From a virus, in the IMG/VR virus record IMGVR_UViG_3300025890_000047, positions 1 through 43,612 of that record: 43,612 nucleotides of DNA, one strand, 5' to 3'. The stretch's first letter is position 1. Each line of letters opens with the position of its first letter. Of the stretch, positions 20,031 to 35,789 are shown piece after piece. A program made the position numbers and the translations under genes. The notes under the pieces were generated by a model that was given only the letters and a program-made list of their open reading frames with translations, was not told the DNA's origin and made no database searches.

Positions 20031-23000
20031 GTGGCATTTAAAGACAGTCAAGAAGGTGGGGATTGGTCTTGGTTAGATCAACCTTCAGGTGAGGGTTCAG
20101 CTTCACTTGGTTATGCAGCAAACTTAGATAAACAAAAGGCTCTCGAAGTTTATAAGAACGGGGAGTTTATCCAAGACATCATGGATTACTATGGTGAGCG
20201 AGATGGAATAACCTTTAGTTCAAATGAAGAAGCCTACGACAAATTCTGGACTGATCGTACATGGCGTAACCTCAATACTTTTGCTATTGGTGCTGATTAC
20301 TTAGATGGTAAATCTAACACTGATGCACAGAACATACGACTTGCCCGACTTCAATCAGTGCACACAGCCCTACCAGATTTCTGGCAAGAGGGTGGTAATA
20401 GAGATGCTGGTCATTTAGCAGATATTGCTGGATCAGTAATCTTAGACCCAATTAACGCAATAGGTTTTGGTGCTGGTGGTGCAGCAGCAAAAACAGCAGC
20501 CTTCACAGCTATACGAAGTGGGCTGAGTAAAGAAGCAGCAAAGTCGGCTGGTCGAAACGCAGCAATGAAAAAAGGTTTTGTTGCTGAAGGTGCAGCTAAC
20601 GCACTCGTTGAAGGTGTGGCTAATGTTGGTATTCAAAACAGAGATATAGAAATAGGGCTAAGAGGAGAATATAATCCTTTTGAAACTGCTACTGCTTCTG
20701 CTATGGGCTTTGCCTTGGGTGGTGCTCTCGGTGTTCCTATGGGTCTTGCTGGTGCTTATATGCCAGCCTTTACCAAAGCTGGGAGATCAGGGTCTCACGA
20801 CTGGAAGACATCAAACAAATTATCTCAAGGTATGCGTGAAGGAAAAAAAGCTAGGTTCCAAGACAAACTAGACGCTGCAAGTAACGAAGTTGCAAACGAG
20901 ATTGTAGACGAAGTCGATGATATGACAGCTTCTCAAATCTTGAGAGGCAATGTTATTGCTAGAGCAAAGCAAGATTATGACAAAGCCAGAGCTGAAACAG
21001 CAGAACAAAATGGTGGACTAGATTTAGAAAAGGGAGATGCAAATAATCTTCCTGATGGAGAGCTTTCAACTTGGTCTAATTTAGAAGCTGCTTCAGCACG
21101 AGTGGATCATTTAGCCAAAGCCTCTCACGAAAGAAAAGCGTCAGCACAACAAATAGCTCCTGAAGACCCAGCTAAAGCTAATGACTTAATGAATGAAAGT
21201 CAGAAACTAGCTGAAGCATCTAATGCTATTCAAGACGCATTTAATAGAATGAATAAGAAGTACGAAGACGGGCTAGTGCCTACTGAAAAAGAAATTGAAA
21301 CTCTTTTGTCAGAAGATCAAAGAGCACAGCAATTATTATTTGATTTTAATACAGGCAGTGACCCTAATGTTAAAAACCCAGTTGATCCAAAAGATGCCGT
21401 TATTCCTGGTGCACGACCAGACACTCAACTTCCAGATGGTTCAGCCGTACAAGATGTTGCACCCAAGACAGACCCTGTAGCTGTTCAAGCAGAGGCAAGG
21501 CAAGTTGAAATCAATAAGGCTCAGACAGATGTAGACAATACAAAAGCGTCCTTTGAAGCTGGTGCGACAAAAGTAAATAATGCCAGTCGTAAATTAACAA
21601 GACTTACAGGAGCCTATGAGCGATCATTACAGTCTGGTGTTCCAGAAAATGTTACGTCAGCAGAACAAGCACTAAGGGTAGCAGAAGAAGAATTAGATGT
21701 TGCGACTGGTGAATTGGAAGTATTAACTAACAATGCTAAGATTGCTGAAGATGCTCTTGTTGCAAAAAAATCTGAAGAGTTAAAGGCTGCACCAGATCAA
21801 GACACTTCTCCAGAAGTCGTGGCTGAAACAGAAGCAACAGCTACTGGCAACAAAGTCGTTGAAGAGCCACAGTCGGCAGAAGAAATTGTTGATGAGTTAG
21901 TTAACAGCACTGACCCAGATGAGAAGATTAGCTTCACCAGCCTCAAGTCTACATTAAATTATATTGTTGATGAGCTTGGCTTTAGCCGTGCAGAAGTTAT
22001 TAACTCTTTACCGAAAGCTAAAAAAGGTAGGCCAACTAACGCAGACAAAGAGGCGTTTAGGTCTGCTGCCATTCAGTTTACAGAACGAGCAATGGTACAA
22101 CAACAAGCTCAAAATGCTATTGAACAGTTAACTTCACCAGAACAATTCTTTGATTTTAATGTTGTTTCTGGAATTTTAGATAGCACCTTTACTGATCCTC
22201 GTCTTCGTGCCATTGCTCAAGACGAATATATAACAGCTATAGCTGACCAATCCCCATCTTATATTGCTAACCTGATTAGCGAAAATCCAAACTTAAAGAT
22301 GTCTGAAATTTTAATTCAGGCAGAAGATTACTTCGGAAAAGAAGTTGCTGAGATAATGGCAAACTCTATGAAGTCAGATGTGGTTCAAAAGTCCTCTATA
22401 GATATGGATAAGTTAATTGGCAAGAAAGCTGCGATTGGAAACATGACCAGTAACATCAAAGCCATGAACGACACTATCTTTAGAGTTAGTGAACTTAGGA
22501 AAGCTATCCTTGGCAAATTAACAGACGAAGAATTTAAGCGTGGTTATGGTCAAGTAACTGAGACAAAAAAAATACGGGGTCAAGAGAACCTTACTCAAGC
22601 ACAAGTAAACCAGATTGTTAACAACCCAAACTTCAAGGGTCAGGTAGACACATACAGTAGTTTCTCTTTCCAAGCTGGCTCTGGCTCCACACCACAAAGA
22701 GCCGTTGCTAATGATGCAGAGAAGCAAGTCAAAGAAATAGCTAAGTCAAATGGTATTAACCCAGACCTAAACTCTGGCGAAATCATTGAACAGTTAGAGA
22801 TGCGTGTTCGTAAATTAGAGAACGAGCTTGACGCTGGCGTTAGAACACCTATCGATATGACTAAGCCTCAAGGCTCAACTCTTACTAAAGCTGAGTTTGC
22901 ACAGTTAAGCGAAAAGCAACAAATCATGGAAGTGTTTGTGTCTCGACTACCAAAAGGAAAGGTAGAACAGATCAACGCAATGAGAGAACAGCTTATCAAA

Positions 23001-26000
23001 GCTAACATTGCAGATGGTACTATTACTCCTGAGATGGCAGTAAGCACAGCAGATTTAGCTGTTGAAAGAACGATCGAAAACATGATGAAGCGAGATGAAT
23101 TGCTTGGTCAAGTTGATGGTAAGGGAAAGTCTTTCTCCTCTAATCAGTCAACAAGGGGTATGCAAGATGCCTCAGTTGCAGATCAGTACGCAGACAATGC
23201 CTCACACATGGGTAAAACATATGAAGGTGGCTTTGGTAAAATAAGTATTGGTCGTAATAGAACTATGGTTGGTGGTTCTGCATCTAAGAGAGTACAGAAG
23301 ATACTTCGATCTGCTAACAGGGTTGGTTTAAATGATGGTGCAGTCTTTAGAAAGCACGGCATTGTTAAAGGTGAGAGTGCTACAGTTTCATTTCAAGAAG
23401 CTGCACTGCAAGAATTAGAACAGTCGTTTATCGACAACGCTACTAACCGAGTTGTCAGAAGTGACGAAAAGATTAAAGACAACAAGGTTGAGTTTGACAA
23501 TGCAAATAATGCAATCAAAGAAGCGAATAAACTTAACGCTCAAATTAAAAAGTTAGATAAAGAGATTGATGAAAACCCTGGTGCAGAAAATGTACCTCAA
23601 CTTGAAAAAGATGTTCAACTTTTAAATCAGCAAGTAACTAAGATATATGAAGATGCTATTGCTAAAGCTCCTGATTATGCAGCAGAAAAAGGAAAGCTCA
23701 ATCAATTAGAGCCAACTCTCCGTGGCACAGTATTGGAAATAAGAAAAGAGTTTTCACAGGAAACTGCTAAAGAAGCTGCTGGTCGAAAAGCAGAAAACAG
23801 AAAGTCGTCACCAGTCGGTAAGGTACAGGTGATACTTAATGAGTTGAAAAACCACCAGACCAACATAGTAAAAGCTAAGAAGCGTGGTCGTTCTAAACCA
23901 ATCATGGATGCTTTGTATTCAGAGAAGAAAGAAATATATAAGCGATACAATGCTGAGTTCAAAAAACTTAGCAAGTCAGATCAGAAAAGAATTAAAGAGG
24001 CGAACAAGAAAGTCGCAACACAAACTGCTGCTGAAATTGAAATCAGGCAGCGAGCTAAAGAACAAGAAGTCGCAGACATTAAGATAGATGAAGTTCCAGA
24101 GTGGTATGGTCTTGATGACATAACACCTGAAGAACGAGTTGGTATTATTGAAGATAGTCAAAAACTAGCAGATCAAAACAATAAGTCTCAGGCAGCAGAA
24201 GTAGAGATTAAACAAAAAGCACAAGCTGTTTTATCTAACGACTTGCCTAAAGACGAGATGGTAAGAATAATACTAGAGTTAAAGTCTGAGCTTGATGCAA
24301 TCAAGAATGGTGTACCACCAACTAAAGCCCCAACTGGCACACAGTTCAAACCCTACATCAGAAAAATAGATGGGTATGAAGTGGACGTACATAATCATTT
24401 TAAGTTTGAAGGAAAGGGAGGCGAAGGCTTCCTAGTATTTGATGGTGTCCGTGTAGCTCAAATGGGTAAGATTGGAGACAAAGTAAGTCTTACACTTATT
24501 ACAGACAAGGCTTCAAGTAACGACATACGATTGTTCAGCAACTCGAATATGATGAAAGATAATATCCCTGAGATATTTAAAAACAGAATTGCTGAGTATG
24601 CTGAAAGAACTGGAGCTATCATTAAGACTGAGGGTGAAGAAGGCTTGCAGTTCAAACAAGAGTGGAACAAGTCAGAAACATATAAAGGTCGTGCTGAAGC
24701 AGATGCAGAAGACCTTGTAATTGATGATCCGACTGTAGAGACATCTCCTATATCTGATCCTAAAAATGTTATGACACATACAGCCAACGACTATCAGGTT
24801 CCTCCTGGTCGAAAGATGGCTGTGCAAATTATTGATGATGTTGAAGGTTCAGCACTTCATGGAGTTGTCCGTATCCCTAACCCTAACCAAACTATAGGTC
24901 AGGTATTAAAGACCAGTTCTAATAAGAAGTTTATTATTGGTCATGTAAAAATAGATCGTAAGATAGCATCTGGTCGTAGAAAAAAGGGTATGGCTAATGT
25001 TGTTACCCCAGCCTCTCTTGCTGAAGCTATGGAAGACTTTACTCCATTAACTCCATCAGAGGGTAAGGTCACTTATCAAGAAGGACAATTACTTTTAGGC
25101 AACAAAACAGTCGCAGATAAAAGCCCACGAAAAAGAGCTATGCGACCAGTTAAGGTTGAGGACTTAGGCAATATTAAGGTTAAGAAAAGTTTTCTACCTA
25201 ATGCTGTAGCAGACAAAATTGATAACGCTGCTGACTTACAAGCCTATATTAATAACTTAGAAAACATTTCATGGAGCCGACTAGGTACACTTGCAGATGT
25301 CAAAAGGTTTACGAATACTTTAAAGCAAGCCTACGCAGCAATGGGCAACGCAGTTCCTAATGGCGTGAAAAGAATTGAGTTAGATCAACGACAGTCTTTC
25401 AAAACTCTTCGTAATGTTTTTAAAGGAAGAGCAGATGATGAGATTGAAGCATCGCTAGATTTCCTAAGACGAATTAACCCTGATGGCTCCAATGGAGCTA
25501 TGCCAAGGTTTGAAGGCGTAGATGGAATTGAGGGAGATGCTAACGCAGTCGGTGCTTATAATACAAACGATGGAAAGATATTATTAACTGACAAGCTATT
25601 TGAAAAGGGTGGTGATGAACAGTTACGACCTATACCAGCGACCATAACTGTTGTGCATGAGGTAGGCCACTGGGCTTATGACAACATGTTAACTCCATCT
25701 GAAAAGATGATGTTCTGGCACTCTATGTCAAAATATTATGATGCAGATGGTAATTTAGATATGGAGCTTTTACAGAAAAGACTGCCAGGAATAAGTGGCA
25801 ATGAGATTGAAAGTCCAGCAGAATTATTTGCTCATCAGTTTACATCTTATGCTTTAAATATTGGAGCAGTTCCAGACGCTGCATTGTTTATTAAAGTTGC
25901 ACGACACGCTGTAACATTGATTGAGCGTTTTGTGTTTGGCAAACATCCTATGGGAATACAAAGTGCTGACCCAGATTTAGAAGCATTGTTTGAAAGAATT

Positions 26001-29000
26001 ATTCCTAGAAACCAGTTTGATGCAGATGGATCAGTTGTTCATGGAGCCAGTCGTTTTGCTGGGCTTGAAGAGAATGGCTATACTGTATCTCCGACTGCTG
26101 GGTTTATAGGAAGACAGCTTAATGAATTAGATAATATGCGTAGTAAGCTAACATCTGTTATGAACGTATCAATCGTTAATGATGTTGCTGATACACAGTT
26201 GTTATTAAAAACCCTAGAGGAGACAGGGAAAAATATCTATAGCAAGTTTGGTGGTGGGCAAGGCAAGACACATCATTACACTAACAAAGCTACTGGAGAA
26301 GGTGGAAATCAAAGAGTACGACTGCTTGATGGTCAAGTCACAAACAAGCAAGAAGTCGTAACAGGAGATGGCTCTACTAAGCTAGTTAACATATATAATT
26401 ATCCAGCAGCAAGACGAGCCAGAAACAGATTGCTTAATGCTCAATCTGCCATTCGTGATTACATGAAAGAAGTTACGACTTACGAAGCATCTACAAAAAC
26501 ATCTACTGATGATGCAGAGCTACGACAGTTAATTGCTTCACAACAAATGGACATGGAAGATGCTATGCCTGACAACTCGTTCATTGAAATGGATGAAATG
26601 GAGTTGGCAAACGTAGGTTCTTCTTGGGAGGCTCAAGCCGAAGTTCTCTCTAGGCAGATGACTATGACTACTGGAAACCTTAACTTCATGCACATCCGAA
26701 GACTGGCTGGCGACATGCTTAATGCTATTGACGATGGACAGCGTGAGCTTGTTAAAGCCTTCAATCGTAATATGCCAAGAGATGATATGTCTCGTCAGGT
26801 ATCAATCGACTTCAAAGGTGATGCAAGTATTACTCAGCCAAGCATCAAGGGCAGAAAGAAAAAGATGGGCGATGCTATACAGCTACGTCAAGAGAAGCAG
26901 TTGGTTAATGATATTAAAGAATTGGAAACTGAAAGTGTATTGTTAACTCAAGTTGGTAATGATGCGTTGTTAAGTGCTATCCGTAATGGCGATCCTAAAA
27001 TATTTATGGATAGCTTGGCTGAAACAAACCCTGTGATTAAGAAGTCTGTTAAGCAAATGACGGACGCAGAGCTTAATGCAGAAAAGAAAAGAACAAATTA
27101 TGGAGACAAGCGTAAAGTTGACTTGGCGTTAGAAGTCTCTGCTCGTAAGAACGCAAGTAAAAATGTAAACCAAGAAGAAGCTGAAATCGTATCAGACCCA
27201 GCCGTACAAAAAGCTATTAATAATGAGGTAGCTCAAACTGCTGGCACTGATAGCATAGCTGGTATCCCAGCCAAGACACCACAGCCTATTAAAGATTTCT
27301 TGAGGGGTCTTACTAATGGCGACAAAGTGCAAGAAGCTGTAGGTCAGAACCTGATTTATAGATTACTTAATGTTGGAGGTCACACTATTGACGACTTCGA
27401 TACTGGCTTTGTTCCAGAAAGTATTATGGAAGGCATCTTTACACAGAATACAGTTCCAAAAAGAGCGACTGGAGAACCAGCTTCTTTGAAGGATCAGGCA
27501 TATAACGGCTTGAGAAAAGAATTAAGAGCTATAACTAAGTCCCTTTCTGGTAAGGGAGATATGACACCTAGAGATATGGAAGTAATGTCAGACTTGGCGT
27601 TTCATTTATCTATGTCTGATGCGACTAAAGCTAAATTTGTAAGCAACATGAGAACCCTAGAATTACCTTCTGGTTTGGATAGTTTGCTTTGGTTACGCCA
27701 AGCTATGGTTTATAAGGCTGAAGGTAATTTAGCAGAGTTACAAAGACATGTTCGTGTCTTTGAAGTCGAAGATGGTTTCTATAAAATCCCAGCAAATCCA
27801 AAAGCTCAAGAGCTAATGAGGATTGTGAACAGACACTTTGAAACTATTGCTTACTCACTCAATGGTAACTTTGACCCTGACAAGCTACCACTACAGTTGA
27901 TGAGCTATGGAGACATGTTCGCATCTCAACGTATAGACACAGGCATATCTTCAGCAGTTGATGGTGCAGATAAACGCTTTGTTAATAAGCATGTAGTTCA
28001 AGATTACGCAGTTGAAGCAGTAGACAAATTGCATCAAGACAAAGAAATTATTGCTCGGTCTTTTCTTGGGGTAAGTCGAGAAGCTGATTTGAAAAATCAT
28101 ACATATATCCACTCTGGTCAAGATGGGATGAATACTCAAATTCATAAGACTGAGGTTGGTGAGTATGGCCCAGGTTATTACATGCAGACTTTGTCTGAGT
28201 TTAACTCAAAGTCGTCTGCTGATTTACATAACCGAGGGGCAGATGATTTAATTAAATCAAGTAGCGTATCTGACAATCTTAAACAAAAGTCTTTAATGGC
28301 AAACAGAAAACTGACCGATGTTAATATTGCTATTGATGCACTAAGCATGGAAAAGAAGATGGCTACTCCAGCTAGAAAGAAAGAGATTGTTGGTACTCTA
28401 CAGAACCTAGTCAAGAGAGCTAATTCTTTACAAACAATTATAAACAGAACAGCTACTGTAAACTTAAACAGTGATGTGGTTCCTGTATTTTCAAATCCAA
28501 GGAACATGTTTAATTTTAGTCGAACTGCAATATACGACTTTGTAAATCCTTCTGATAATAACATTGCACATATCATTGCTGATATGGGTGAAAAAGGATT
28601 GATCTCCGTAAAAGGCGTTCAAAAGTTACAAGAAGTTTTAGATGGTTCGTTCACTGGCTCTGACTTCTTCCGTGCTCTAACAGATGAAAACGTAGGTGTT
28701 ATGCACAAGCATGGCGATAGCGTAAATTCATTTGAAGCAAAAACAAGACTTAATGAATACCTTGAAGATGCTGGTTATGAAGGTTCAGTTCACTCAAATA
28801 AAAATAGTGAGACTGTAATAGTTAACTACAATAGCGAAACAATGAAGCCTATTAACGGAGACTTTACCGAAGCAGAACTTAATAACACCAATCAAGGGAA
28901 ATCTGGTGGAGATATAAAACCAACTGGCGACTTGTTAATAAAACAATTAGAAGAAGGCGAAGCCTTTGACCCAACCGACTTTGTTGGATTTAGTGCACAG

Positions 29001-31628
29001 TTACAAAGATCAAGCCTAGCCGATCCAGTCGTAAGAGTGGTAAGGCGTATGGCTAAGAAACAACCACTGGAAGAAGGCGACTTACAGCGAGCGTCAAAAT
29101 TTTCTACTGTTAAAAGTTGGTTCACTGAAAACTCAATTAGGTTTAGAGACAAAGGTGCTCACTGGTATGGAAATCTTTTAAAGCCTAAGAATGGTATAGG
29201 TATATTTGAAAAACACTCAGTTGATTTGGCTGGTAAGATAAACCCTATCTTTTCTAAACTAGAAGAATTGCCTGATGCCAAAGGCCGTATATCAAAGTGG
29301 ATGGGTAAAAACTCTGGGTTAATTGGCAAAGGTGTTCCAGTTCCCGATAGCCACAAAAGAATTGTTAACGCTCTTAGGGCTGGCAACTTGGCTGTCTTAA
29401 AACAAGGTGAAAGAAAAATTGCACAACAAATAGCAAATGCGTTTACTAAAGAACTAAACGATATGAGAGCTATAGGCATCAAGGTTGGTGATGTTACCCA
29501 GGGAGGACGTAATGGTTATTACTTCCCACAAGTTTGGGACGTTGAAGCAATTAGGGAAAATCCTAATGCCTTTATAAACGGCTTATTGGAAATGTTTGTC
29601 CGAGAACAAAACTCTCCAGACTTTGAGGGCACAAGGTTAACTCGTGATGAAATACTAACGAAAGCAAAGAACCTTCAAGAAAGAATGGTTGATAACGAGG
29701 GTGTGGCTGATGAGAGTTTAGTTCACACTGCTATCTCTGATCCATTTTCAAGAAGGATGCTTACTCTAAAGCCAGAAGAAATGAAGGGAATGAGGGGATA
29801 CTTAGTCAACGACCTCCAAGGAATTTTGGCTAAATACTTTGACAGATCAACTCGTAAGATAGCTCTATCAGAAAAGTTTGGAGTAGAGGGTCACGGCTAT
29901 GATGCTTATAAATCTATTGCAGATTTAGGAGATGATGCTGCTGTAACTATACTATCTAATGCCAAGCTAACAGTTAGTAAGTTTGATAGTATGGGTGTAA
30001 AGGTTGATACTGGAGACACTATTGTTCCTAAAATAAACAAGTCGTTTGATGAAATAAAAGAACTTATAGGCTCTGTAAAGAAAGCTCTTGCTGGGAACCC
30101 TCAACAAAATATGGTTCAGGCGAAGAACATTCTTATCAACGCTATAGATGTTACTCAAAGAACTAACCCTCAATTTCTAGTAAGGGTAGATGCAGTCGTC
30201 AACGCACTGGCTGACTTTCAAGGCGTACCACAAAGAAAGGGTTTAATAAGTGACCTTGAAAGCATGAACAGGGTTTTGAACAAGAGACCTATTACTGGAG
30301 AAGGTCACGAATTTTCACACCAGTTCACAAGAAGGCTCAAGACTTTCAATGCTGTTTCGTTACTTGGATTTACAACCCTAACTTCAATGCCTGATTTAAC
30401 TTTACCTTTAATTAGGTCTGGTAACTTAGGTGCTTTTGCCAAGGCTTGGAAACAATATAGTTCCAACCCAGCTTACAGGGCTGCTGCAAAGAATATTGGT
30501 GTGGGTATTGAGAACCTTATGCACGACAGAATGGTACAGATGGCTGGCGAGGGAAATCAGAAGTTTAGTAACTCATTCTTTAACGCAACCTTGTTGACCG
30601 ACTGGACTAACTTCAACAGACAGATGGCATCAATGGTGGGTATGGAAGCCTTTAGGTCAGAAATACAAAACGCTATTACTCTTAGAAACCAAGGAAAACA
30701 AAACAGTCGTTCATATAAAACTTCTGCAAGTTTTTTAGAAAGGTATGGACTAACTGGTGAAAATGCCGAGGTTGATTACTTGTTACCAGGAGCACCACGA
30801 GTGGATATGCCGACTGAAAACCTAGCACAAAGACAAGCATTTAAATATGCAGCTATGCGTTTTACTAACGAAGCTATTTTCACACCTAACCCAAATGACA
30901 TACCGATGTGGGCACAAACACCTTGGGGTTCATTAATGTTCCAGCTTAAATCTTTCCCACTAATGATGGGTAGGATGAGTAAAGATGTGATGTCAGAAGC
31001 CTTTGGTAAAAATGCAGATGGCACAATGAAAGCTAATTTCAAACCACTAATGTATTTACTTACGGCTGGTATAGGTATCGGTGCAGCTTCGGCTGGTGTC
31101 AAAGACCTTGTTCAAGGAAGAGGCGAAGACAGTCAAGGCAATAAGATACGAGAGTTCAGAGATCGAAAGGCAACTGACAGTATATCTTACATAGCTTCAT
31201 TGTTGGGCATCGAAGAAGATGGAGATACTGATAAAGTTTTAGGTTGGTACATCGAAGGTCTCATGGCAATCGGTGGCTTGGGCTTGTTTGCTGAAATGCT
31301 ATACAACTCTTCGGCTCAACTAGATAATGGAAAGTATGGATTTGTCAGAACAATGTCAGCCATAGCTGGCCCAGGAGTTTCTGCTGCTGAAGATATACTT
31401 TTTGATATTCCAGCAGGAGCAAAAGACTTTGTTACAGGTGACGGGACTAAGACTGGTCAAAGGCGTGAAATGTTTAGATCAATCGCTGGACGACTGCCTG
31501 TACTCGGAGGTCTTCATGGCTTCAGAGAAGGAGCAGCCGACTTGGGTGGCAAGAAAGGTGGCAATAAAAAAACCCAATCTAAATTTGGCAAGGTTACGTT
31601 TGCAACTAACAAAGGGTTTGGGAATTAA
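20031..31628 (+). CDS. Giant 3865-residue polyvalent/ejection protein: metallopeptidase and ADP-ribosyltransferase-like domains
   Basis: One uninterrupted 11.6 kb frame from a GTG start (GGAG seven bases upstream). Residues 131-161 and 221-246 are Gly/Ala-rich hydrophobic segments, as are about 3672-3695 and 3736-3758, fitting membrane insertion. Residues 270-800 and 1150-1450 are mostly coiled coil. Around 1760-1970 is a zincin-like domain with HEVGHW (ligands H1876 and H1880, catalytic E1877) and a downstream SPAELFAHQF whose E1931 is the likely third ligand. Around 2685-2945 is an ADP-ribosyltransferase-like domain with YIHSG (H2694), GEYGPGYYMQ (Y2716/Y2717) and SETVIVNY (E2927), the H-Y-E layout. 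Phage 'polyvalent' proteins combine such domains and enter the host with DNA. The C-terminal 900 residues are helical with no catalytic motif I recognise. Delivery into the host is inferred. Confidence 0.8.
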   Translation: MAFKDSQEGGDWSWLDQPSGEGSASLGYAANLDKQKALEVYKNGEFIQDIMDYYGERDGITFSSNEEAYDKFWTDRTWRNLNTFAIGADYLDGKSNTDAQNIRLARLQSVHTALPDFWQEGGNRDAGHLADIAGSVILDPINAIGFGAGGAAAKTAAFTAIRSGLSKEAAKSAGRNAAMKKGFVAEGAANALVEGVANVGIQNRDIEIGLRGEYNPFETATASAMGFALGGALGVPMGLAGAYMPAFTKAGRSGSHDWKTSNKLSQGMREGKKARFQDKLDAASNEVANEIVDEVDDMTASQILRGNVIARAKQDYDKARAETAEQNGGLDLEKGDANNLPDGELSTWSNLEAASARVDHLAKASHERKASAQQIAPEDPAKANDLMNESQKLAEASNAIQDAFNRMNKKYEDGLVPTEKEIETLLSEDQRAQQLLFDFNTGSDPNVKNPVDPKDAVIPGARPDTQLPDGSAVQDVAPKTDPVAVQAEARQVEINKAQTDVDNTKASFEAGATKVNNASRKLTRLTGAYERSLQSGVPENVTSAEQALRVAEEELDVATGELEVLTNNAKIAEDALVAKKSEELKAAPDQDTSPEVVAETEATATGNKVVEEPQSAEEIVDELVNSTDPDEKISFTSLKSTLNYIVDELGFSRAEVINSLPKAKKGRPTNADKEAFRSAAIQFTERAMVQQQAQNAIEQLTSPEQFFDFNVVSGILDSTFTDPRLRAIAQDEYITAIADQSPSYIANLISENPNLKMSEILIQAEDYFGKEVAEIMANSMKSDVVQKSSIDMDKLIGKKAAIGNMTSNIKAMNDTIFRVSELRKAILGKLTDEEFKRGYGQVTETKKIRGQENLTQAQVNQIVNNPNFKGQVDTYSSFSFQAGSGSTPQRAVANDAEKQVKEIAKSNGINPDLNSGEIIEQLEMRVRKLENELDAGVRTPIDMTKPQGSTLTKAEFAQLSEKQQIMEVFVSRLPKGKVEQINAMREQLIKANIADGTITPEMAVSTADLAVERTIENMMKRDELLGQVDGKGKSFSSNQSTRGMQDASVADQYADNASHMGKTYEGGFGKISIGRNRTMVGGSASKRVQKILRSANRVGLNDGAVFRKHGIVKGESATVSFQEAALQELEQSFIDNATNRVVRSDEKIKDNKVEFDNANNAIKEANKLNAQIKKLDKEIDENPGAENVPQLEKDVQLLNQQVTKIYEDAIAKAPDYAAEKGKLNQLEPTLRGTVLEIRKEFSQETAKEAAGRKAENRKSSPVGKVQVILNELKNHQTNIVKAKKRGRSKPIMDALYSEKKEIYKRYNAEFKKLSKSDQKRIKEANKKVATQTAAEIEIRQRAKEQEVADIKIDEVPEWYGLDDITPEERVGIIEDSQKLADQNNKSQAAEVEIKQKAQAVLSNDLPKDEMVRIILELKSELDAIKNGVPPTKAPTGTQFKPYIRKIDGYEVDVHNHFKFEGKGGEGFLVFDGVRVAQMGKIGDKVSLTLITDKASSNDIRLFSNSNMMKDNIPEIFKNRIAEYAERTGAIIKTEGEEGLQFKQEWNKSETYKGRAEADAEDLVIDDPTVETSPISDPKNVMTHTANDYQVPPGRKMAVQIIDDVEGSALHGVVRIPNPNQTIGQVLKTSSNKKFIIGHVKIDRKIASGRRKKGMANVVTPASLAEAMEDFTPLTPSEGKVTYQEGQLLLGNKTVADKSPRKRAMRPVKVEDLGNIKVKKSFLPNAVADKIDNAADLQAYINNLENISWSRLGTLADVKRFTNTLKQAYAAMGNAVPNGVKRIELDQRQSFKTLRNVFKGRADDEIEASLDFLRRINPDGSNGAMPRFEGVDGIEGDANAVGAYNTNDGKILLTDKLFEKGGDEQLRPIPATITVVHEVGHWAYDNMLTPSEKMMFWHSMSKYYDADGNLDMELLQKRLPGISGNEIESPAELFAHQFTSYALNIGAVPDAALFIKVARHAVTLIERFVFGKHPMGIQSADPDLEALFERIIPRNQFDADGSVVHGASRFAGLEENGYTVSPTAGFIGRQLNELDNMRSKLTSVMNVSIVNDVADTQLLLKTLEETGKNIYSKFGGGQGKTHHYTNKATGEGGNQRVRLLDGQVTNKQEVVTGDGSTKLVNIYNYPAARRARNRLLNAQSAIRDYMKEVTTYEASTKTSTDDAELRQLIASQQMDMEDAMPDNSFIEMDEMELANVGSSWEAQAEVLSRQMTMTTGNLNFMHIRRLAGDMLNAIDDGQRELVKAFNRNMPRDDMSRQVSIDFKGDASITQPSIKGRKKKMGDAIQLRQEKQLVNDIKELETESVLLTQVGNDALLSAIRNGDPKIFMDSLAETNPVIKKSVKQMTDAELNAEKKRTNYGDKRKVDLALEVSARKNASKNVNQEEAEIVSDPAVQKAINNEVAQTAGTDSIAGIPAKTPQPIKDFLRGLTNGDKVQEAVGQNLIYRLLNVGGHTIDDFDTGFVPESIMEGIFTQNTVPKRATGEPASLKDQAYNGLRKELRAITKSLSGKGDMTPRDMEVMSDLAFHLSMSDATKAKFVSNMRTLELPSGLDSLLWLRQAMVYKAEGNLAELQRHVRVFEVEDGFYKIPANPKAQELMRIVNRHFETIAYSLNGNFDPDKLPLQLMSYGDMFASQRIDTGISSAVDGADKRFVNKHVVQDYAVEAVDKLHQDKEIIARSFLGVSREADLKNHTYIHSGQDGMNTQIHKTEVGEYGPGYYMQTLSEFNSKSSADLHNRGADDLIKSSSVSDNLKQKSLMANRKLTDVNIAIDALSMEKKMATPARKKEIVGTLQNLVKRANSLQTIINRTATVNLNSDVVPVFSNPRNMFNFSRTAIYDFVNPSDNNIAHIIADMGEKGLISVKGVQKLQEVLDGSFTGSDFFRALTDENVGVMHKHGDSVNSFEAKTRLNEYLEDAGYEGSVHSNKNSETVIVNYNSETMKPINGDFTEAELNNTNQGKSGGDIKPTGDLLIKQLEEGEAFDPTDFVGFSAQLQRSSLADPVVRVVRRMAKKQPLEEGDLQRASKFSTVKSWFTENSIRFRDKGAHWYGNLLKPKNGIGIFEKHSVDLAGKINPIFSKLEELPDAKGRISKWMGKNSGLIGKGVPVPDSHKRIVNALRAGNLAVLKQGERKIAQQIANAFTKELNDMRAIGIKVGDVTQGGRNGYYFPQVWDVEAIRENPNAFINGLLEMFVREQNSPDFEGTRLTRDEILTKAKNLQERMVDNEGVADESLVHTAISDPFSRRMLTLKPEEMKGMRGYLVNDLQGILAKYFDRSTRKIALSEKFGVEGHGYDAYKSIADLGDDAAVTILSNAKLTVSKFDSMGVKVDTGDTIVPKINKSFDEIKELIGSVKKALAGNPQQNMVQAKNILINAIDVTQRTNPQFLVRVDAVVNALADFQGVPQRKGLISDLESMNRVLNKRPITGEGHEFSHQFTRRLKTFNAVSLLGFTTLTSMPDLTLPLIRSGNLGAFAKAWKQYSSNPAYRAAAKNIGVGIENLMHDRMVQMAGEGNQKFSNSFFNATLLTDWTNFNRQMASMVGMEAFRSEIQNAITLRNQGKQNSRSYKTSASFLERYGLTGENAEVDYLLPGAPRVDMPTENLAQRQAFKYAAMRFTNEAIFTPNPNDIPMWAQTPWGSLMFQLKSFPLMMGRMSKDVMSEAFGKNADGTMKANFKPLMYLLTAGIGIGAASAGVKDLVQGRGEDSQGNKIREFRDRKATDSISYIASLLGIEEDGDTDKVLGWYIEGLMAIGGLGLFAEMLYNSSAQLDNGKYGFVRTMSAIAGPGVSAAEDILFDIPAGAKDFVTGDGTKTGQRREMFRSIAGRLPVLGGLHGFREGAADLGGKKGGNKKTQSKFGKVTFATNKGFGN

Positions 31629-31630
31629 CT

Positions 31631-31999
31631 ATGGAAAAAAAAGAAGGCTACGCATCAAAGAATTTCAAGTGGAGTGAGTTCGCTTGTCGATGCTGTGGGT
31701 TTGTAAACGTAGAACAGGAAGCTGTAGAAAAACTACAGGCTCTCCGAGATGAGCTTGGCATACCATTTTCTCCGTACTCTGCAAGTCGTTGCCCAAGACA
31801 CAACGCCAAAGTCGGAGGTGCACCAAAGTCTCAACACATTGCCAGGGAGGACGAACCTTCCAAGGCTTTTGATGTACCATTGGTTACAGACAAAGACACG
31901 ATTGTTAAGGCTGCAATGAAAGTCGGCTTTATGGGAATTGGAATGAATTACAAAACCTTTGTTCATATGGACAACAGGAAAAAAAGAGCGAGATGGTAA
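31631..31999 (+). CDS. Endolysin, M15-type peptidase
   Basis: A 122-residue protein resembling peptidase M15 (VanY/M15_3-like) enzymes that cut peptidoglycan stem peptides. It starts with the typical NFKWSEFACRCC segment and LQALRDELGIPFSPYSASRC, then the metal-site motifs SQHIA (H69), KAFDVP (D81) and FVHMD (H112). These three zinc ligands in this order and spacing are characteristic. There is no signal peptide, so release would depend on the adjacent holin-like gene. It follows the giant gene by two bases and the next gene by one. Confidence 0.85.
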   Translation: MEKKEGYASKNFKWSEFACRCCGFVNVEQEAVEKLQALRDELGIPFSPYSASRCPRHNAKVGGAPKSQHIAREDEPSKAFDVPLVTDKDTIVKAAMKVGFMGIGMNYKTFVHMDNRKKRARW

Positions 32000-32000
32000 C

Positions 32001-32450
32001 ATGGATGCAATTTTAACGGCACTATTTGGTGGAGCTACTGGCATACTGGGAACAGTTGTCGGCAAAGTCGCTGGATACTTTGAAGCAAAACAAAAGCTAG
32101 AGTTGACCAGGGAAGAGTTCAAACAAGAACTGGCTTTACAAGAACTAAACATTCAGGCTCGTGCTGCCGAGATGGAAAACGAACAAGTGATTGCAGAAGC
32201 TGCGACTTTTGCTACGACTAGGCAAGCCAGTTACGATCACGACAACCAGTACGGAACTCCGTATCGCTGGGTAATAACTTTACTCCGACTGATACGCCCG
32301 TTGTTGACGCTGTCATTAATTGTTTTAACTGGGATACTTTTCTTTCAACTAAGTACCGAAGGACAAGACGACATTGCTGCTCAAGTTATTTTCTTAACTG
32401 GCATGGCAGTAAGTTGGTGGTTTGGAGATAGGTACAAAGGTGGCAAGTAG
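32001..32450 (+). CDS. Holin-like membrane protein (3TM type)
   Basis: A 149-residue protein; an upstream in-frame ATG (31959) lies inside the endolysin gene and is less likely than 32001, which sits just after the endolysin stop. It has a hydrophobic N-terminus (residues 3-25), a long charged helix (30-75), and two transmembrane helices (99-116 and 124-141) ending in VSWWFGDR. The terminal W-W-F-G-x-R motif and topology match the GTA_holin_3TM family as I know it. Next to an M15 endolysin this supports a host-lysis role: forming membrane pores to release the endolysin. Confidence 0.75.
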   Translation: MDAILTALFGGATGILGTVVGKVAGYFEAKQKLELTREEFKQELALQELNIQARAAEMENEQVIAEAATFATTRQASYDHDNQYGTPYRWVITLLRLIRPLLTLSLIVLTGILFFQLSTEGQDDIAAQVIFLTGMAVSWWFGDRYKGGK

Positions 32451-32589
32451 AGGAATACAAACGACTGAGACTGTGAGGCCGACTGCTTCTCGTCCCACAA
32501 ACTATGCCAAGGCTGGCAGACAAGGACAGATGCTCGTAAAGGGTTGTCCTTGTATAACCAAGAAGAAGGGAACAAAAAAATGCCGATAG
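32440..32589 (+). CDS. 49-residue basic protein with GCPCxxKKK tail
   Basis: GTG at 32440 overlaps the holin-like gene by 11 bases and has a GGAG/AGG region upstream. The 49-residue product is polar with an Arg/Thr-rich head (VRPTASRPTNYAKAGRQG) and a Cys/Lys tail (GCPCITKKKGTKKCR). It overlaps the next gene by ten bases, forming a compact series of tiny frames. It could bind metal or nucleic acid, but no family is assigned. Confidence 0.5.
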   Translation: MASRGIQTTETVRPTASRPTNYAKAGRQGQMLVKGCPCITKKKGTKKCR

Positions 32590-32702
32590 TTATTCAAGAA
32601 AAATACAAAAATACAAATAAGAAAAAAGACAAAGTTGGTGGTGGTGGAATGGACATCGCTAAAACTAAAAAGAAAAAAGTTAAGAAGAAGGCTAAAAAAT
32701 AA
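32580..32702 (+). CDS. 40-residue lysine-rich peptide
   Basis: An ATG overlaps the end of the preceding small gene, and the TAA overlaps the next ATG by one base. Sixteen of 40 residues are Lys, with a GGGG hinge in the middle and an end of Lys blocks separated by Val and Ala. Such a peptide would bind DNA or RNA nonspecifically or help charge neutralisation in the capsid. The gene is so short that function is guesswork, though coupling on both sides supports translation. Confidence 0.5.
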   Translation: MPIVIQEKYKNTNKKKDKVGGGGMDIAKTKKKKVKKKAKK

Positions 32703-32821
32703 TGTATGGAAAAACCAAAAAACCTATGCCTAAGAAAACTCCTAAGTCTCCTTACGGCAAGGTGGTGCAGAAGACTACGAAGAAATCTGTTAGCTACAGT
32801 CCAAACGGACGGAAGGCGTAG
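32702..32821 (+). CDS. 39-residue Lys/Pro-rich peptide
   Basis: It starts on the TAATG junction of the previous peptide. It has a repeat-like composition (MYGKTKKPMPKKTPKSPYGK), basic and proline-rich, with no hydrophobic core, so it is probably disordered. It resembles small MYGKxKKPMP peptides I associate with marine phages (memory only). DNA binding is plausible by charge. Confidence 0.5.
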   Translation: MYGKTKKPMPKKTPKSPYGKVVQKTTKKSVSYSPNGRKA

Positions 32822-32824
32822 TGT

Positions 32825-33295
32825 ATGATTGGAGAAGTTCTCGCTGGAATTGCACTTGTCAATTCTGCCCACAAACAAATCAAGCAGTTAGTAAGTAATG
32901 TAAGTGACATCGGTGGCTTGGCAAAGCATATCGATCAACTGTTTGAAGGCGAGAGACAAATCCAAAAGGACAGAAGCAAAGCCAGCAGTCCATTAAGCAT
33001 GAAGAGTGTTGCAGAAGAAACGATCAATGCTCGACTTGCCCAAGAACAGATGCAAGAGATTGCGACTTTGGTAAACATGAGATTTGGCCCAGGTACATGG
33101 CAAGGGATAATAAACGAGAGAGCCAAAAGAATACAAGAACAGAAGGAACATGAGAGAGCACAGAGAGCACTTAAAAGAAAAGAGCAAGAAGAATTTGCAG
33201 AGAACGCCAAGCTCCTTGGCATTGTGTTCATGTCTATCATTAGTTTAATGGGTATTGTGGTAGGTCTTTTTGTTTACAATTCGAGTGACAATTAA
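32825..33295 (+). CDS. Membrane protein with N-terminal hydrophobic helix, coiled coil and C-terminal anchor
   Basis: A 156-residue protein with GGAAGG upstream. Residues 1-30 form an amphipathic/hydrophobic helix (MIGEVLAGIALVNSAHKQIK), residues 65-128 a charged helix with a Glu/Lys/Arg/Gln-rich coil, and residues 128-151 a transmembrane helix. The layout resembles a spanin or another envelope-associated protein, but orientation (C-terminal anchor) is not that of a typical inner-membrane spanin. It lies in the lysis region. Family not recognised. Confidence 0.6.
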   Translation: MIGEVLAGIALVNSAHKQIKQLVSNVSDIGGLAKHIDQLFEGERQIQKDRSKASSPLSMKSVAEETINARLAQEQMQEIATLVNMRFGPGTWQGIINERAKRIQEQKEHERAQRALKRKEQEEFAENAKLLGIVFMSIISLMGIVVGLFVYNSSDN

Positions 33296-33396
33296 TGGCT
33301 GGCTTTTATTTGTATATAAGTAAGCCGTTTATAAAAGTGGGTAATTATTTCTGGCGTAAACATGTCGTCTGTCTACGAAGAAAACAGGGGAGATAA
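33295..33396 (+). CDS. 33-residue basic amphipathic peptide
   Basis: An ATG overlaps the TAA of the previous gene (TAATG). The peptide is aromatic at the N-terminus (MAGFYLYISKPFIKVGNYFW) and Arg/Lys-rich at the C-terminus. The frame ends three bases before the next ATG, and the ribosome site of the next gene (GGGGAG) lies in its last codons. Tight coupling suggests a real gene, yet its small size makes this tentative. Confidence 0.4.
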   Translation: MAGFYLYISKPFIKVGNYFWRKHVVCLRRKQGR

Positions 33397-33398
33397 AA

Positions 33399-33527
33399 AT
33401 GGATTGGATCACAGCCGACTTAGTAGAAGTTCTACATCATATGTCTTGGTTTGATGGGTTGGCATACATAGCACTAGGTCTTGGTGTTTATGCTTCAGTT
33501 AAATACATACAGAAGAGGTTTAAATAA
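33399..33527 (+). CDS. 42-residue single-helix membrane peptide
   Basis: A good ribosome site (GGGGAG, spacing six) precedes ATG 33399. The product has a polar amphipathic start (MDWITADLVEVLHHMSWFDG), one membrane helix (LAYIALGLGVYASVKY) and a basic end (IQKRFK). The stop overlaps the next ATG. A small membrane peptide near holin genes may modulate lysis, but this is inference. Confidence 0.55.
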   Translation: MDWITADLVEVLHHMSWFDGLAYIALGLGVYASVKYIQKRFK

Positions 33528-33781
33528 TGGCAAAGAAGAAAGCTAGTGGCCCGTGCAAAGGCAAAAGTCTTAACAAACCTTTCCGAACTCCAGGCAAACC
33601 AAAGAAGTCGGCAGTCTGTGTGAGTGACGGAGCTAAGATTAAGATCGTTAGGTTTGGTGATCCCAACATGAAGATTAAGAAAAGCATACCAGCTAGGCGA
33701 AAGTCGTTCCGTGCTCGTCATAATTGTGCAAGCCCAGGGCCAAAAACTTCAGCAAGATATTGGTCTTGCAAAGCGTGGTGA
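33527..33781 (+). CDS. 84-residue basic protein, DUF6321-like
   Basis: It is translated from a TAATG junction. It has a Lys-rich start with GPCKGKSL, a central strand-like part (KIKIVRFGDPNMKIKKSIP) and a conserved end (RRKSFRARHNCASPGPKTS followed by ARYWSCKAW). I recognise this end as typical of a small phage family that I recall as DUF6321 (number unverified). Four Cys residues and the basic surface suggest a zinc- or nucleic-acid-binding fold. It overlaps the following gene by GTGA. Confidence 0.7.
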   Translation: MAKKKASGPCKGKSLNKPFRTPGKPKKSAVCVSDGAKIKIVRFGDPNMKIKKSIPARRKSFRARHNCASPGPKTSARYWSCKAW

Positions 33782-33897
33782 CGAAGTGCATTGGGATTTG
33801 TAAGCTAGTTGATGATGTTTGTGTTGGTTGTTTCCGAACCATAGAACAAATCAAGGAGGCATACACTCAGTCGTTGCCCAAACCAAAAAGAAAATAA
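33778..33897 (+). CDS. 39-residue DUF1289-like Cys protein
   Basis: GTG at 33778 overlaps the previous TGA (GTGA). The product begins MTKCIGICKLVDDVCVGCFR, followed by a TIEQIKEAY helix and a basic end. C-x3-C, then C-x2-C followed by R-T-I/L-E-E/Q-I, is the signature of DUF1289, a small four-Cys family widespread in proteobacteria. That match is clear by eye despite its length. Function of the family is unknown; an Fe-S or zinc site is inferred. In a phage it may have been taken from a host gene. Confidence 0.7.
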   Translation: MTKCIGICKLVDDVCVGCFRTIEQIKEAYTQSLPKPKRK

Positions 33898-34461
33898 ATG
33901 ATCGTAGATGAACTAGAATTATTTAAAGACAAGTATCTAAGGGAAGCCCAAGTCATTGGGTATACTCCATTGAACAATGCTGTCAAAGATATATTCGGAA
34001 TTTACGGATACACTCAATTTGTAAAAGACCCTTATCAAGTACAAGTATTTGTAGTGCCTCCTTATAAAATTATACCAGAACATACACATCCAAATGTTGA
34101 TAGTTATGAAGTTTATCTAGGTGGTCAAATCTTATTTAGTCGTGGAGGTAAATGGATAACCACAAATGAAGACCTAAAGAAAGAAGACCCTGAAGGTCGA
34201 AGTATTAAAAGAGGGAACTTTCTAAGAATAAAACCCAACGACTTACATGGTGGTTGTTTTGGAAAATCAGGTGGTGTGTTTATGTCCATACAGAAATGGC
34301 TCAATGGAGTTCAACCATCTTGTGTCAGTTTTGATTATGATGGGATAGCACTTGATAGTGAACATGAAGTAGACCAAGGCGAAATAAAACATAAAGATTT
34401 AACTTGGAGGGATGCAGCTTCTCTTGAAGACAATCCTCCTTTTTGGGAGGGAGAAAAGTAA
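33898..34461 (+). CDS. Cupin-fold protein
   Basis: A 187-residue protein starting directly after the preceding stop with a weak ribosome site. Cupin motif 1 is seen at H62-T-H64 followed by E71 (PEHTHPNVDSYEVYLGG). Motif 2 is GNFLRIKPNDLHGG, with H117 as the last metal ligand. These residues form a small-metal site in a beta barrel. Such phage cupins are uncharacterised; possible roles are a dioxygenase, a sugar epimerase or a binding protein. The long polar C-terminal arm (residues 140-187) is extra to the barrel. Placement among small basic genes gives little clue. Confidence 0.7.
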   Translation: MIVDELELFKDKYLREAQVIGYTPLNNAVKDIFGIYGYTQFVKDPYQVQVFVVPPYKIIPEHTHPNVDSYEVYLGGQILFSRGGKWITTNEDLKKEDPEGRSIKRGNFLRIKPNDLHGGCFGKSGGVFMSIQKWLNGVQPSCVSFDYDGIALDSEHEVDQGEIKHKDLTWRDAASLEDNPPFWEGEK

Positions 34462-34607
34462 TGGCAAAGTTATGTGCAAAAGGTAAGGCTGCTGCTAAAA
34501 GAAAGTACAAGGTATATCCATCAGCGTATGCAAATATGCACGCTTCAGCTATATGCTCTGGCAAAATCAAAGTCGGAGGCAAGAAAAAGAAGGCTAAGAA
34601 AAAATGA
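34461..34607 (+). CDS. 48-residue basic protein with VYPSAYAN motif
   Basis: The TAATG start overlaps the cupin stop. The sequence reads MAKLCAKGKAAAKRKYKVYP, then SAYANMHASAICSGK and a Lys-rich tail. The K-x-K-V-Y-P-S-A-Y-A-N core is conserved in a family of tiny phage proteins that I recognise but cannot name. Basic charge suggests nucleic-acid contact. It overlaps the next gene by four bases (ATGA). Confidence 0.65.
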   Translation: MAKLCAKGKAAAKRKYKVYPSAYANMHASAICSGKIKVGGKKKKAKKK

Positions 34608-34834
34608 GTGGTCTTCGTAAATGGGTAAAAGAAAAATGGGTGGACATTGGTGCACCTAAAAAGAATGGCAAGTACCAACCATGTGGTAGAAAGAAAGGGG
34701 ATGGACGTAAGTACCCCAAGTGTGTGCCACTGGCTAAAGCCAAGAAGATGTCATCATCAGCTAAGAAGTCGGCAGTAAAAAGAAAAAGGGCTGCGAATAA
34801 TTCGGGGCCAAAACCTAAGAATGTGAGGACGTAA
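34604..34834 (+). CDS. 76-residue basic protein, DUF5872-like
   Basis: It has an ATGA overlap with the previous gene. It begins MSGLRKWVKEKWVDIGAPKK and has YQPCGRKKGDGRKYPKCVPL, the pattern K-W-V-D-I then P-C-G-R then Y-P-K-C that I associate with DUF5872 (number unverified). It is about one-third Lys plus Arg, so DNA or RNA binding is likely. Function unknown. Confidence 0.65.
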   Translation: MSGLRKWVKEKWVDIGAPKKNGKYQPCGRKKGDGRKYPKCVPLAKAKKMSSSAKKSAVKRKRAANNSGPKPKNVRT

Positions 34835-35007
34835 TGCAAGGAACTCCAGCTTGCCCAAGATGTGGTGCTATATGTGGAACAATGTGGGTTCATGGTCACG
34901 AGCAGTGTGCCGTATGCCATCAAGTAGCTGACGGAGATTGCTGTTCTGGAGAGACTGCTAGTTGTCCAGTCCAGTCAGAGGAACCCTCCGACTATCAGGA
35001 TCAGTAA
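34834..35007 (+). CDS. 57-residue Cys-rich zinc-ribbon-like protein
   Basis: TAATG coupling plus GAGGA at good distance support translation. The product starts MQGTPACPRCGAICGTMWVH and continues GHEQCAVCHQVADGDCCSGE with a further Cys, i.e. C-x2-C, C, C-x2-C, CC, C. It looks like a small zinc-binding protein. Its 3' 50 bases overlap the 3' end of the convergent dNMP-kinase gene on the other strand, so the two transcripts are complementary there. Confidence 0.6.
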   Translation: MQGTPACPRCGAICGTMWVHGHEQCAVCHQVADGDCCSGETASCPVQSEEPSDYQDQ

Positions 35008-35611
35008 CATCCTCTTCTTCAAATGGGTCATCACCAAAAAATTCTGGTGGGTGTTCCATTTGGTAAGACTTAAACAAATCAAAGTTTACTATTTTATCTA
35101 GCATCGCAAAGATGCCGTGGCTTTCTTTCTCATTGTTGGTTAGTGTGTGGTCACACTTGAAATCAATCAGTTCCGATGAGTGCGTTGCGTCTTGCAATTC
35201 GCCCCTCTTTAGATGAATGGTCACTCCCCCCATTGCCTTCACTGCTTGAGCTTCGTTGATGTATCTCAAGTCGTCTGCCACTACGGGGGTTCCTAAAGTC
35301 AGGTGTCGTTCCACCTCTTTGACCCAAGTGTTTGCCCAAAATTCGTTGCCGATCTGGTCTCGACCCCATTCCACTCCCAAGGATTGCATCGCCCATCGTG
35401 GTGTTTTCCCTTCTAATAAATCACACGGCACTTCTTTAAGTGAGCCTTCAATGTGTGCATCGGTTAAACCAATCGCTCTAAGCATATTCTTTAGAGGATC
35501 AGCCATCTTGACTTTAGCATATCCGTGGTGTGCACACAAATAGTCGGCACATAAAGTTTTACCCGTTCCAATTTGACCAGCAAAGGCCACGACTTTAATT
35601 CTGGTATTCAT
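34958..35611 (-). CDS. Deoxynucleoside monophosphate kinase
   Basis: A 217-residue P-loop kinase that phosphorylates dNMPs to dNDPs for DNA synthesis. P-loop GQIGTGKT lies at residues 12-19, followed by a lid region (ADPLKNMLRAIGLTDAH), TPRWAMQSLGVEWGRDQIGN (typical of T4 gp1-like dNMP kinases) and VVADDLRYINEAQAVKAMGG. The start is set at 35611 because AGGAG lies five bases before this ATG; an upstream in-frame start would add 11 residues without such a site. It overlaps the preceding small gene by 17 bases and is the last gene of the minus-strand cassette. The Asp/Glu-rich C-terminus (DDPFEEEDVTDPDSRRV) is an extra tail. Confidence 0.85.
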   Translation of the reverse strand: MNTRIKVVAFAGQIGTGKTLCADYLCAHHGYAKVKMADPLKNMLRAIGLTDAHIEGSLKEVPCDLLEGKTPRWAMQSLGVEWGRDQIGNEFWANTWVKEVERHLTLGTPVVADDLRYINEAQAVKAMGGVTIHLKRGELQDATHSSELIDFKCDHTLTNNEKESHGIFAMLDKIVNFDLFKSYQMEHPPEFFGDDPFEEEDVTDPDSRRVPLTGLDN

Positions 35612-35789
35612 ATCCACTCCTGACAAGTTGTATTGATAGGTCAAGTCTTTCTGAAATAAGAAACCTAAGTTTATCCAACGCTTTCTTTACTTCGTCCTTC
35701 GACATATCACCTCTCATGTGCATGAGCCGTGCGTTTAGATTGTCTATCTCAGCCTCAATCGTTAACTTTCTTTCTATAATTTTCTCCAA
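35595..35789 (-). CDS. 64-residue coiled-coil protein (TTG start)
   Basis: It opens at TTG 35789-35787, directly abutting the nuclease stop (TAA TTG), with AAGGAG nine bases upstream; no ATG fits as well. The product is a charged helix-helix (MEKIIERKLTIEAEIDNLNA, LDKLRFLISERLDLSIQLV). A dimeric coiled coil is likely. Located between nuclease and dNMP kinase, its role is unknown. Confidence 0.6.
   Translation of the reverse strand: MEKIIERKLTIEAEIDNLNARLMHMRGDMSKDEVKKALDKLRFLISERLDLSIQLVRSGYEYQN

Follow-up and report, generated by a model that had tools for sequence, protein, structure and literature searches.

The window analysed here is a virus record of 43,612 nucleotides (nt; 43.6 kb) from IMG/VR (IMGVR_UViG_3300025890_000047), in which positions 32440–35007 of the plus strand are tiled end to end by twelve open reading frames (ORFs) of 33–187 amino acids (aa), named p1 to p12: ten of 33–84 aa, a 156-aa membrane protein and a 187-aa cupin. 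Three of them, p7, p10 and p11, form a movable set that occurs across unrelated phages, frequently beside terminase, portal, scaffold or capsid genes, and are the main subject of this report. Junctions in the run span −10 to +3 nt; from p1 to p12 they are, in order, a 10-nt overlap, TAATG, a 3-nt gap, TAATG, a 2-nt gap, TAATG, GTGA, no gap, TAATG, ATGA and TAATG. A preliminary description of this DNA had reported a run of tiny genes here, mostly coupled through TAATG, ATGA or GTGA; all of its frames are present and its size classes stand, but its count of eleven is one short. When ORFs of at least 30 aa are counted, the coupled chain comprises 12 ORFs over 2,592 nt on the plus strand and one ORF of 327 nt on the minus strand. 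The longest chain in 1,000 dinucleotide-preserving shuffles is 729 nt, with at most five ORFs in the five best shuffles, and the tiling is far above chance.

Conservation in relatives, the absence of which the preliminary description had named as a reason to abandon these frames, holds for nine of the twelve: p1, p4, p5, p9 and p12 recur in related contigs (contigs and genomes compared are denoted by L numbers), p7, p10 and p11 in many contigs, and p8 is connected through the DUF1289 family. Ratios of non-synonymous to synonymous polymorphism (pN/pS) are low, at 0.19 for p11 (70 sequences), 0.14 for p10 (64 sequences), 0.08 for p7 against L170, 0.21 for p9, 0.35 for p4 and 0.43–0.58 for p1, and therefore indicate purifying selection on these genes. 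Searches of related contigs and of families returned no significant relatives for p2, p3 and p6, for which the tiling is the support, and gene content varies from relative to relative. Such a pattern could also arise if the run were mostly a recombination hot spot holding short ORFs of little function, with only p7, p9, p10 and p11 under selection; besides the three frames lacking relatives and the differing content, this would fit the location of the cyanophage protein T4-GC119, which carries p10- and p11-type domains, within a possible mobile cassette of metabolic genes (PMC3037559). We consider this explanation highly improbable, because the tiling is nearly gap-free with coupled starts over its full length, and because p1, p4, p5 and p12 are conserved too.

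Compared through their relatives, p10 and p11 can be assigned firmly, as far as sequence goes, as the two halves of a DUF5872-like protein encoded by separate adjacent genes. The 48-aa p10 (34461–34607) resembles the N-terminal half (KLCxxGKAAAKRKxKVYPSAYAN) and continues into a Lys tail; it is preceded by GGGAGGGAG and matches phrog_27331 with an E-value of 6e-23. The 76-aa p11 (34604–34834) resembles the C-terminal half (LRKWxxEKWVDIG..QPCGR..YPKCVPLAKA) and matches phrog_23735 (E 4e-34). The Pfam profile of DUF5872, PF19197, has 116 positions, to which p10-type domains align at 1–43 and p11-type domains at 54–112, in the same order. Above the gathering cut-off of 27.5 bits, p10-type frames match the start of the profile (positions 6–37 at 33.6 bits in L221; 5–39 at 35.1 bits in L198) and p11-type frames its end (55–99 at 51.9 bits in L221; 55–112 at 53.3 bits in phage P-SCSP2), so that the adjacent ORFs of L221 cover opposite halves, both above the cut-off. 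The pair forms one 133-aa frame in L052, which matches positions 6–108 at 25.9 bits, just below the cut-off, and both domains occur in one protein, in reversed order, in L247 and in T4-GC119 of cyanophage S-BM3; in the window no single protein holds both halves. Many p10 homologs (in L013, L017, L063 and others) have a C-terminal extension ending in KGCGxVMxxRRKxT.

The two halves are closely linked in the genomes that carry them. Homologs of p11 are found in at least 597 viral contigs; among 80 contigs chosen by p11, p10 adjoins it in 77, and across 100 loci with both genes the two always share a strand, p10 coming first in all except L247. Cultured carriers of the pair include Roseobacter phage CRP-2 and Pelagibacter phage HTVC027P. 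A single-protein genome scan identified nine contigs from bacterial and archaeal assemblies, and in each of them p10 adjoins p11. Linkage to p7 was counted in 80 loci chosen by p7 alone, not all of them independent: p10 is present in 9, p11 in 10 and both in 9.

The 84-aa p7 (33527–33781) has a domain resembling Tlr6F (FGDPNMKIKK..RRKSFRARHNC..ARYWSCKAW). The preliminary description had called this protein DUF6321-like, a label we dropped after finding no such Pfam match for any of the twelve proteins up to an E-value of 1; p7 is instead Tlr6F/DUF5754-like, matching phrog_7595 (E 8e-18) and phrog_9979 (E 5e-7), and it aligns in hhalign with residues 183–258 of Gp125 of phage ICP1 over 75 columns (98% probability, E 2e-13, 37% identity), a similarity that extends over the whole domain. 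Gp125 is annotated as a capsid protease and located between portal and scaffold in ICP1, where degradation of the scaffold is its predicted role (PMC9040626) and the capsid operon that includes gp125 is transcribed late (PMC7567579). A Vibrio phage Peptidase_S78_2 protein contains a similar Tlr6F-like domain. Fused forms of 120–1,092 aa are common in larger phages; the domain also occurs alongside DUF5824 and DUF3721 in multi-module proteins, and large phage proteins in L186, L192 and L247 combine a cytidylyltransferase domain with Tlr6F or DUF5872-like domains.

The neighbours of the set are frequently head or packaging genes. Tlr6F, p10 and p11 lie directly together in L001, L003, L276, CRP-2 and phage C72C1; in the window the DUF1289 and cupin genes separate p7 from p10. 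Relatives of the window family by portal (66–71%) have the orders Tlr6F-TerL-portal (L170), Tlr6F-p10-p11-TerL-portal (L276) and p10-p11-TerL-portal (L002), and the p7 copy of L170, 95% identical, lies between an upstream 135-aa ORF and TerL. Among relatives by capsid protein, L268 has p10-type and p11-type genes followed by scaffold and major capsid protein (MCP), the set follows the lysis genes in L254, L260, L262 and L267, and in CRP-810 scaffold and capsid are immediately preceded by Tlr6F and two further tiny basic genes. Outside these groups, most of 80 contigs have the order portal-p10-p11-GroES-MCP, invariably on one strand. Elsewhere the order is TerL-portal-p10-p11-scaffold-MCP (L050) or portal-scaffold-p10..p11-MCP (P-SCSP2), Tlr6F-p10-p11 stands upstream of TerS-TerL-portal in CRP-2, and T4-GC119 adjoins the TerS gene gp16. 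The p11 of L276 shares 84% identity with the window protein, whereas the form carried by some other members of the family shares about 45%, so the set seems to have undergone exchange.

The run forms the 3′-terminal part of the late operon, which holds the structural and lysis genes. Late expression, as the preliminary description had proposed, would fit this position, and in most of the phages whose neighbouring genes could be identified the three core genes stand among those for head, packaging or lysis. Its other proposal, host takeover, finds no support here: none of the gene context is early, and the late-operon position argues against an early takeover role.

On balance we propose, with about even confidence, that p7, p10 and p11 are small proteins, made late, with an accessory part in head assembly or genome packaging. 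Such a role is suggested for Tlr6F because the domain is found within a predicted prohead protease and its gene often adjoins terminase, and for p10 and p11 because in unrelated phages they stay close to the genes for terminase, portal, scaffold and capsid. We infer that the three proteins would be made late and act in or at the procapsid during assembly or packaging. In this scheme p7 would be a stand-alone version of the C-terminal domain of the predicted ICP1 prohead protease, p10 and p11 would bind each other and cooperate as one split protein, and the Lys-rich tails of the pair may contact DNA or acidic head and packaging proteins; the other small genes of the run would be accessories of the same late operon. 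A more specific version, which we put forward tentatively as a possibility that is rather less probable, is that Tlr6F and the two DUF5872 halves constitute a single module for packaging or head maturation, able to move between tailed phages that are not related and present in fused form in giant viruses too, the halves forming an obligate complex that acts with terminase or the prohead protease.

Several observations weigh against a head or packaging role. The window p11 matches PF19197 positions 54–111 at 18.8 bits (E 0.0025), below the gathering cut-off, and p10 has no hit, so the Pfam test does not file the window genes as DUF5872 members, and the DUF5872-like label of the preliminary description is firm through the relatives but not by this score. 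Similarly, p7 reaches 13.3 bits (E 0.09) against the Tlr6F/DUF5754 profile PF19058, whose cut-off is 27.4 bits; its relative in L190 scores 21.2 bits (E 3e-4). Gp125 itself is a predicted protease. Lysis genes recur as neighbours (in the window, HTVC203P, HTVC023P and L284), Tlr6F lies by glycosyltransferases or other genes in some loci, and terminase, although the commonest annotated neighbour of Tlr6F, adjoins it in about 15 of 80 loci, a raw count without a chance expectation. The possible mobile cassette that includes T4-GC119 holds metabolic genes. We found no proteomic, transcript or biochemical data on these proteins. Structure prediction adds little: the p10–p11 fusion model is of modest quality (mean predicted local distance difference test (pLDDT) score 73, predicted template modelling (pTM) score 0.39), with p10 predicted as two helices (block means 82–90), and the p7 model (pLDDT 74, pTM 0.58) suggests small strands and short helices. 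Sequence and fold searches of the PDB gave nothing significant for either model; among the predicted viral structures that the p7 model matches are proteins with the names XkdF and ChaB, and by themselves the models would support no mechanism.

Two further sources of virion data were considered. The protein T4-GC190 has been detected in virions of cyanophage S-SM1 (PMC3037559), but p7, p10 and p11 domains are absent both from the S-SM1 stretch holding T4-GC190 and from the S-ShM2 protein, and we discarded this candidate. The shell in the P-SCSP1u capsid structure is major capsid protein only, and a match to the P-SCSP2 region is not listed for P-SCSP1u, so this structure does not bear on the question.

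The composition of the proteins bears on how they might act. As the preliminary description had it, most are Lys- or Cys-rich: seven (p1, p2, p3, p5, p7, p10 and p11) are basic, with isoelectric points (pI) of 10.4–11.0, and two are Cys-rich, namely p8 (4 Cys in 39 aa) and p12 (8 Cys in 57 aa), the latter nonetheless acidic at pI 4.3. The Lys-rich p2, p3, p7, p10 and p11, with 29–40% Lys plus Arg, could be virion-internal, protamine- or histone-like proteins that neutralize and condense the packaged genome, and p7, p10 and p11 (charge +16 to +22) are as strongly basic as this would demand. The head and packaging neighbourhood is compatible with the idea, chlorovirus PBCV-1 packages basic DNA-associated proteins (PMC3281028), and giant viruses have related small families (PMC12085832). 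The paper on basic proteins, however, reports no evidence that these contribute much to neutralizing the double-stranded DNA of phages (PMC3281028), the conserved parts of our proteins are Cys and aromatic motifs and not Lys-rich tails alone, and we found no evidence that they are abundant or present in virions; we judge genome condensation unlikely.

The remaining genes of the run, all on the plus strand, are diverse. p1 (32440–32589; 49 aa, GTG start) defines an RPTxYAKGGxxGxMxxxPCPC family with homologs also located after lysis genes in L260, L262, L258 and L254 (E 2e-11 to 2e-8), and is followed by the Lys-rich p2 (32580–32702; 40 aa) and p3 (32702–32821; 39 aa). p4 (32825–33295; 156 aa) is charged with a C-terminal membrane helix and has 17 homologous frames in relatives (best E 4e-48) and a match to phrog_32327 (E 0.001); the basic p5 (33295–33396; 33 aa) has one homolog, adjoining the p4 homolog in L052 (E 1e-4). 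p6 (33399–33527; 42 aa), with one membrane helix and GGGGAG upstream, weakly matches phrog_1597 (E 0.003). p8 (33778–33897; 39 aa, GTG start) bears out the proposed DUF1289 match, and p12 (34834–35007; 57 aa), with a zinc-ribbon-like CPRC..VCH, has homologs in L258 and L260 (E 2e-7 and 1e-6). The cupin-like p9 (33898–34461; 187 aa) has a HTHPNVDSYEVYLGG motif, a PCO_ADO match (E 0.014) and four relatives (76% in L166). Beside its homolog in L166 (6636–7099) stands an adjacent pair of small basic genes (GGKPGQNSARK and SLTKWTNQKWRTKSGK..GERYMP), seemingly a second split family; we had considered these ORFs as DUF5872 halves and dropped them for want of a PF19197 match.

The Cys motifs of p8, p11 and p12, the recurrent position by lysis genes and the variable gene content would also suit late regulatory or host-interaction factors, that is, zinc-binding DNA or RNA binders that tune transcription, translation or lysis timing from a variable accessory island at the operon end. 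Against this, the three core genes have moved, in unrelated phages, into regions that hold terminase, portal and capsid genes, and a predicted capsid protease includes a Tlr6F domain; we hold such a role to be improbable.

The phage encodes an SU10-type capsid protein, and its nearest cultured relative found is the Roseobacter phage CRP-810 (capsid protein 61%, same gene order), founder of a marine phage family (PMC11288001); we assign the phage to the CRP-810-type marine podoviruses. CRP-810 gp49 (L269, 39214–39372) is annotated as a ribonucleotide reductase A subunit, yet it is a 52-aa basic protein (GLYANIHAKRKRI..KMRKPGSKGAPT), and the annotation is likely a mis-annotation. The record opens within the portal gene, which is cut at the start (1–1254), and no terminase gene was noticed, indicating that it is incomplete at that end. 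Between the portal and capsid genes, an 880-aa protein (2131–4773) has repeats that by eye are RCC1-like (GxNGYGQLGxGN). The late region continues with a single 3,865-aa virion-region protein (20031–31628) with a metalloprotease-like HEVGH motif; in this phage family it is probably a polyvalent protein or a virion protein that is injected. Directly upstream of the run are an M15 peptidase endolysin (31631–31999, plus strand; PF08291, 59 bits), which found no relatives when used as a synteny probe, and a holin-like membrane protein (32001–32450, plus strand), which overlaps p1 by 11 nt; in L254 and L262, too, genes similar to it follow the endolysin. A convergent replication block on the minus strand ends the run, and a convergent ORF for a deoxynucleoside monophosphate (dNMP)-kinase-like protein (34958–35644, minus strand) closes the late operon; the convergent arrangement is also seen in relatives.

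DUF5872, Tlr6F and DUF1289 are known families; in a limited sample of the open-access literature, we found no description of a split DUF5872, of the three-gene set or of a link to packaging. Tying Tlr6F and the orphan DUF5872 to one phage module near terminase, portal and capsid genes, and Tlr6F to a predicted prohead protease, makes a role in head assembly or packaging concrete and open to test in cultured phages; should the module exist as proposed, two orphan viral families that are widespread would receive their first function. High conservation across marine phages can extend to genes of 40–80 codons, which sometimes go unannotated; the p11-type frames in CRP-901 and CRP-902 are examples.

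Compared with known systems, p8 is a member of DUF1289 (PF06945; 35.1 bits, cut-off 27), although at just 39 aa it spans positions 3–26 of 47. The C-terminal third of ICP1 Gp125 is homologous to p7, whereas its protease part is missing from p7; phrog_9979 shares the length and domain position of Gp125. With Tlr6F/DUF5754, p7 shares the FGD..RH..W core, but it is a stand-alone gene near a split DUF5872-like pair. Tlr6F has been described as conserved in almost every polinton-like virus, in several virophages, in many giant viruses and in some phages, without detectable resemblance to any domain whose structure or function is known (PMC4642659). DUF5872 is reported, for example, in the algal virus CpV-BQ1 (PMC12085832); in the window and most phages its halves are separate neighbouring genes. 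T4-GC119 of cyanomyoviruses contains a p11-type and then a p10-type domain, the reverse of the window order, and differs from the window pair also in being a single 337-aa protein that carries further modules. The last module of T4-GC119 (itself at 2515–3528 in L275) also occurs in L058 (10449–10730) as a 93-aa gene two genes past p11 (RKSFCARMSGMK..RINKSLRKWNC), so that modules forming one protein in one phage are separate tiny genes in another.

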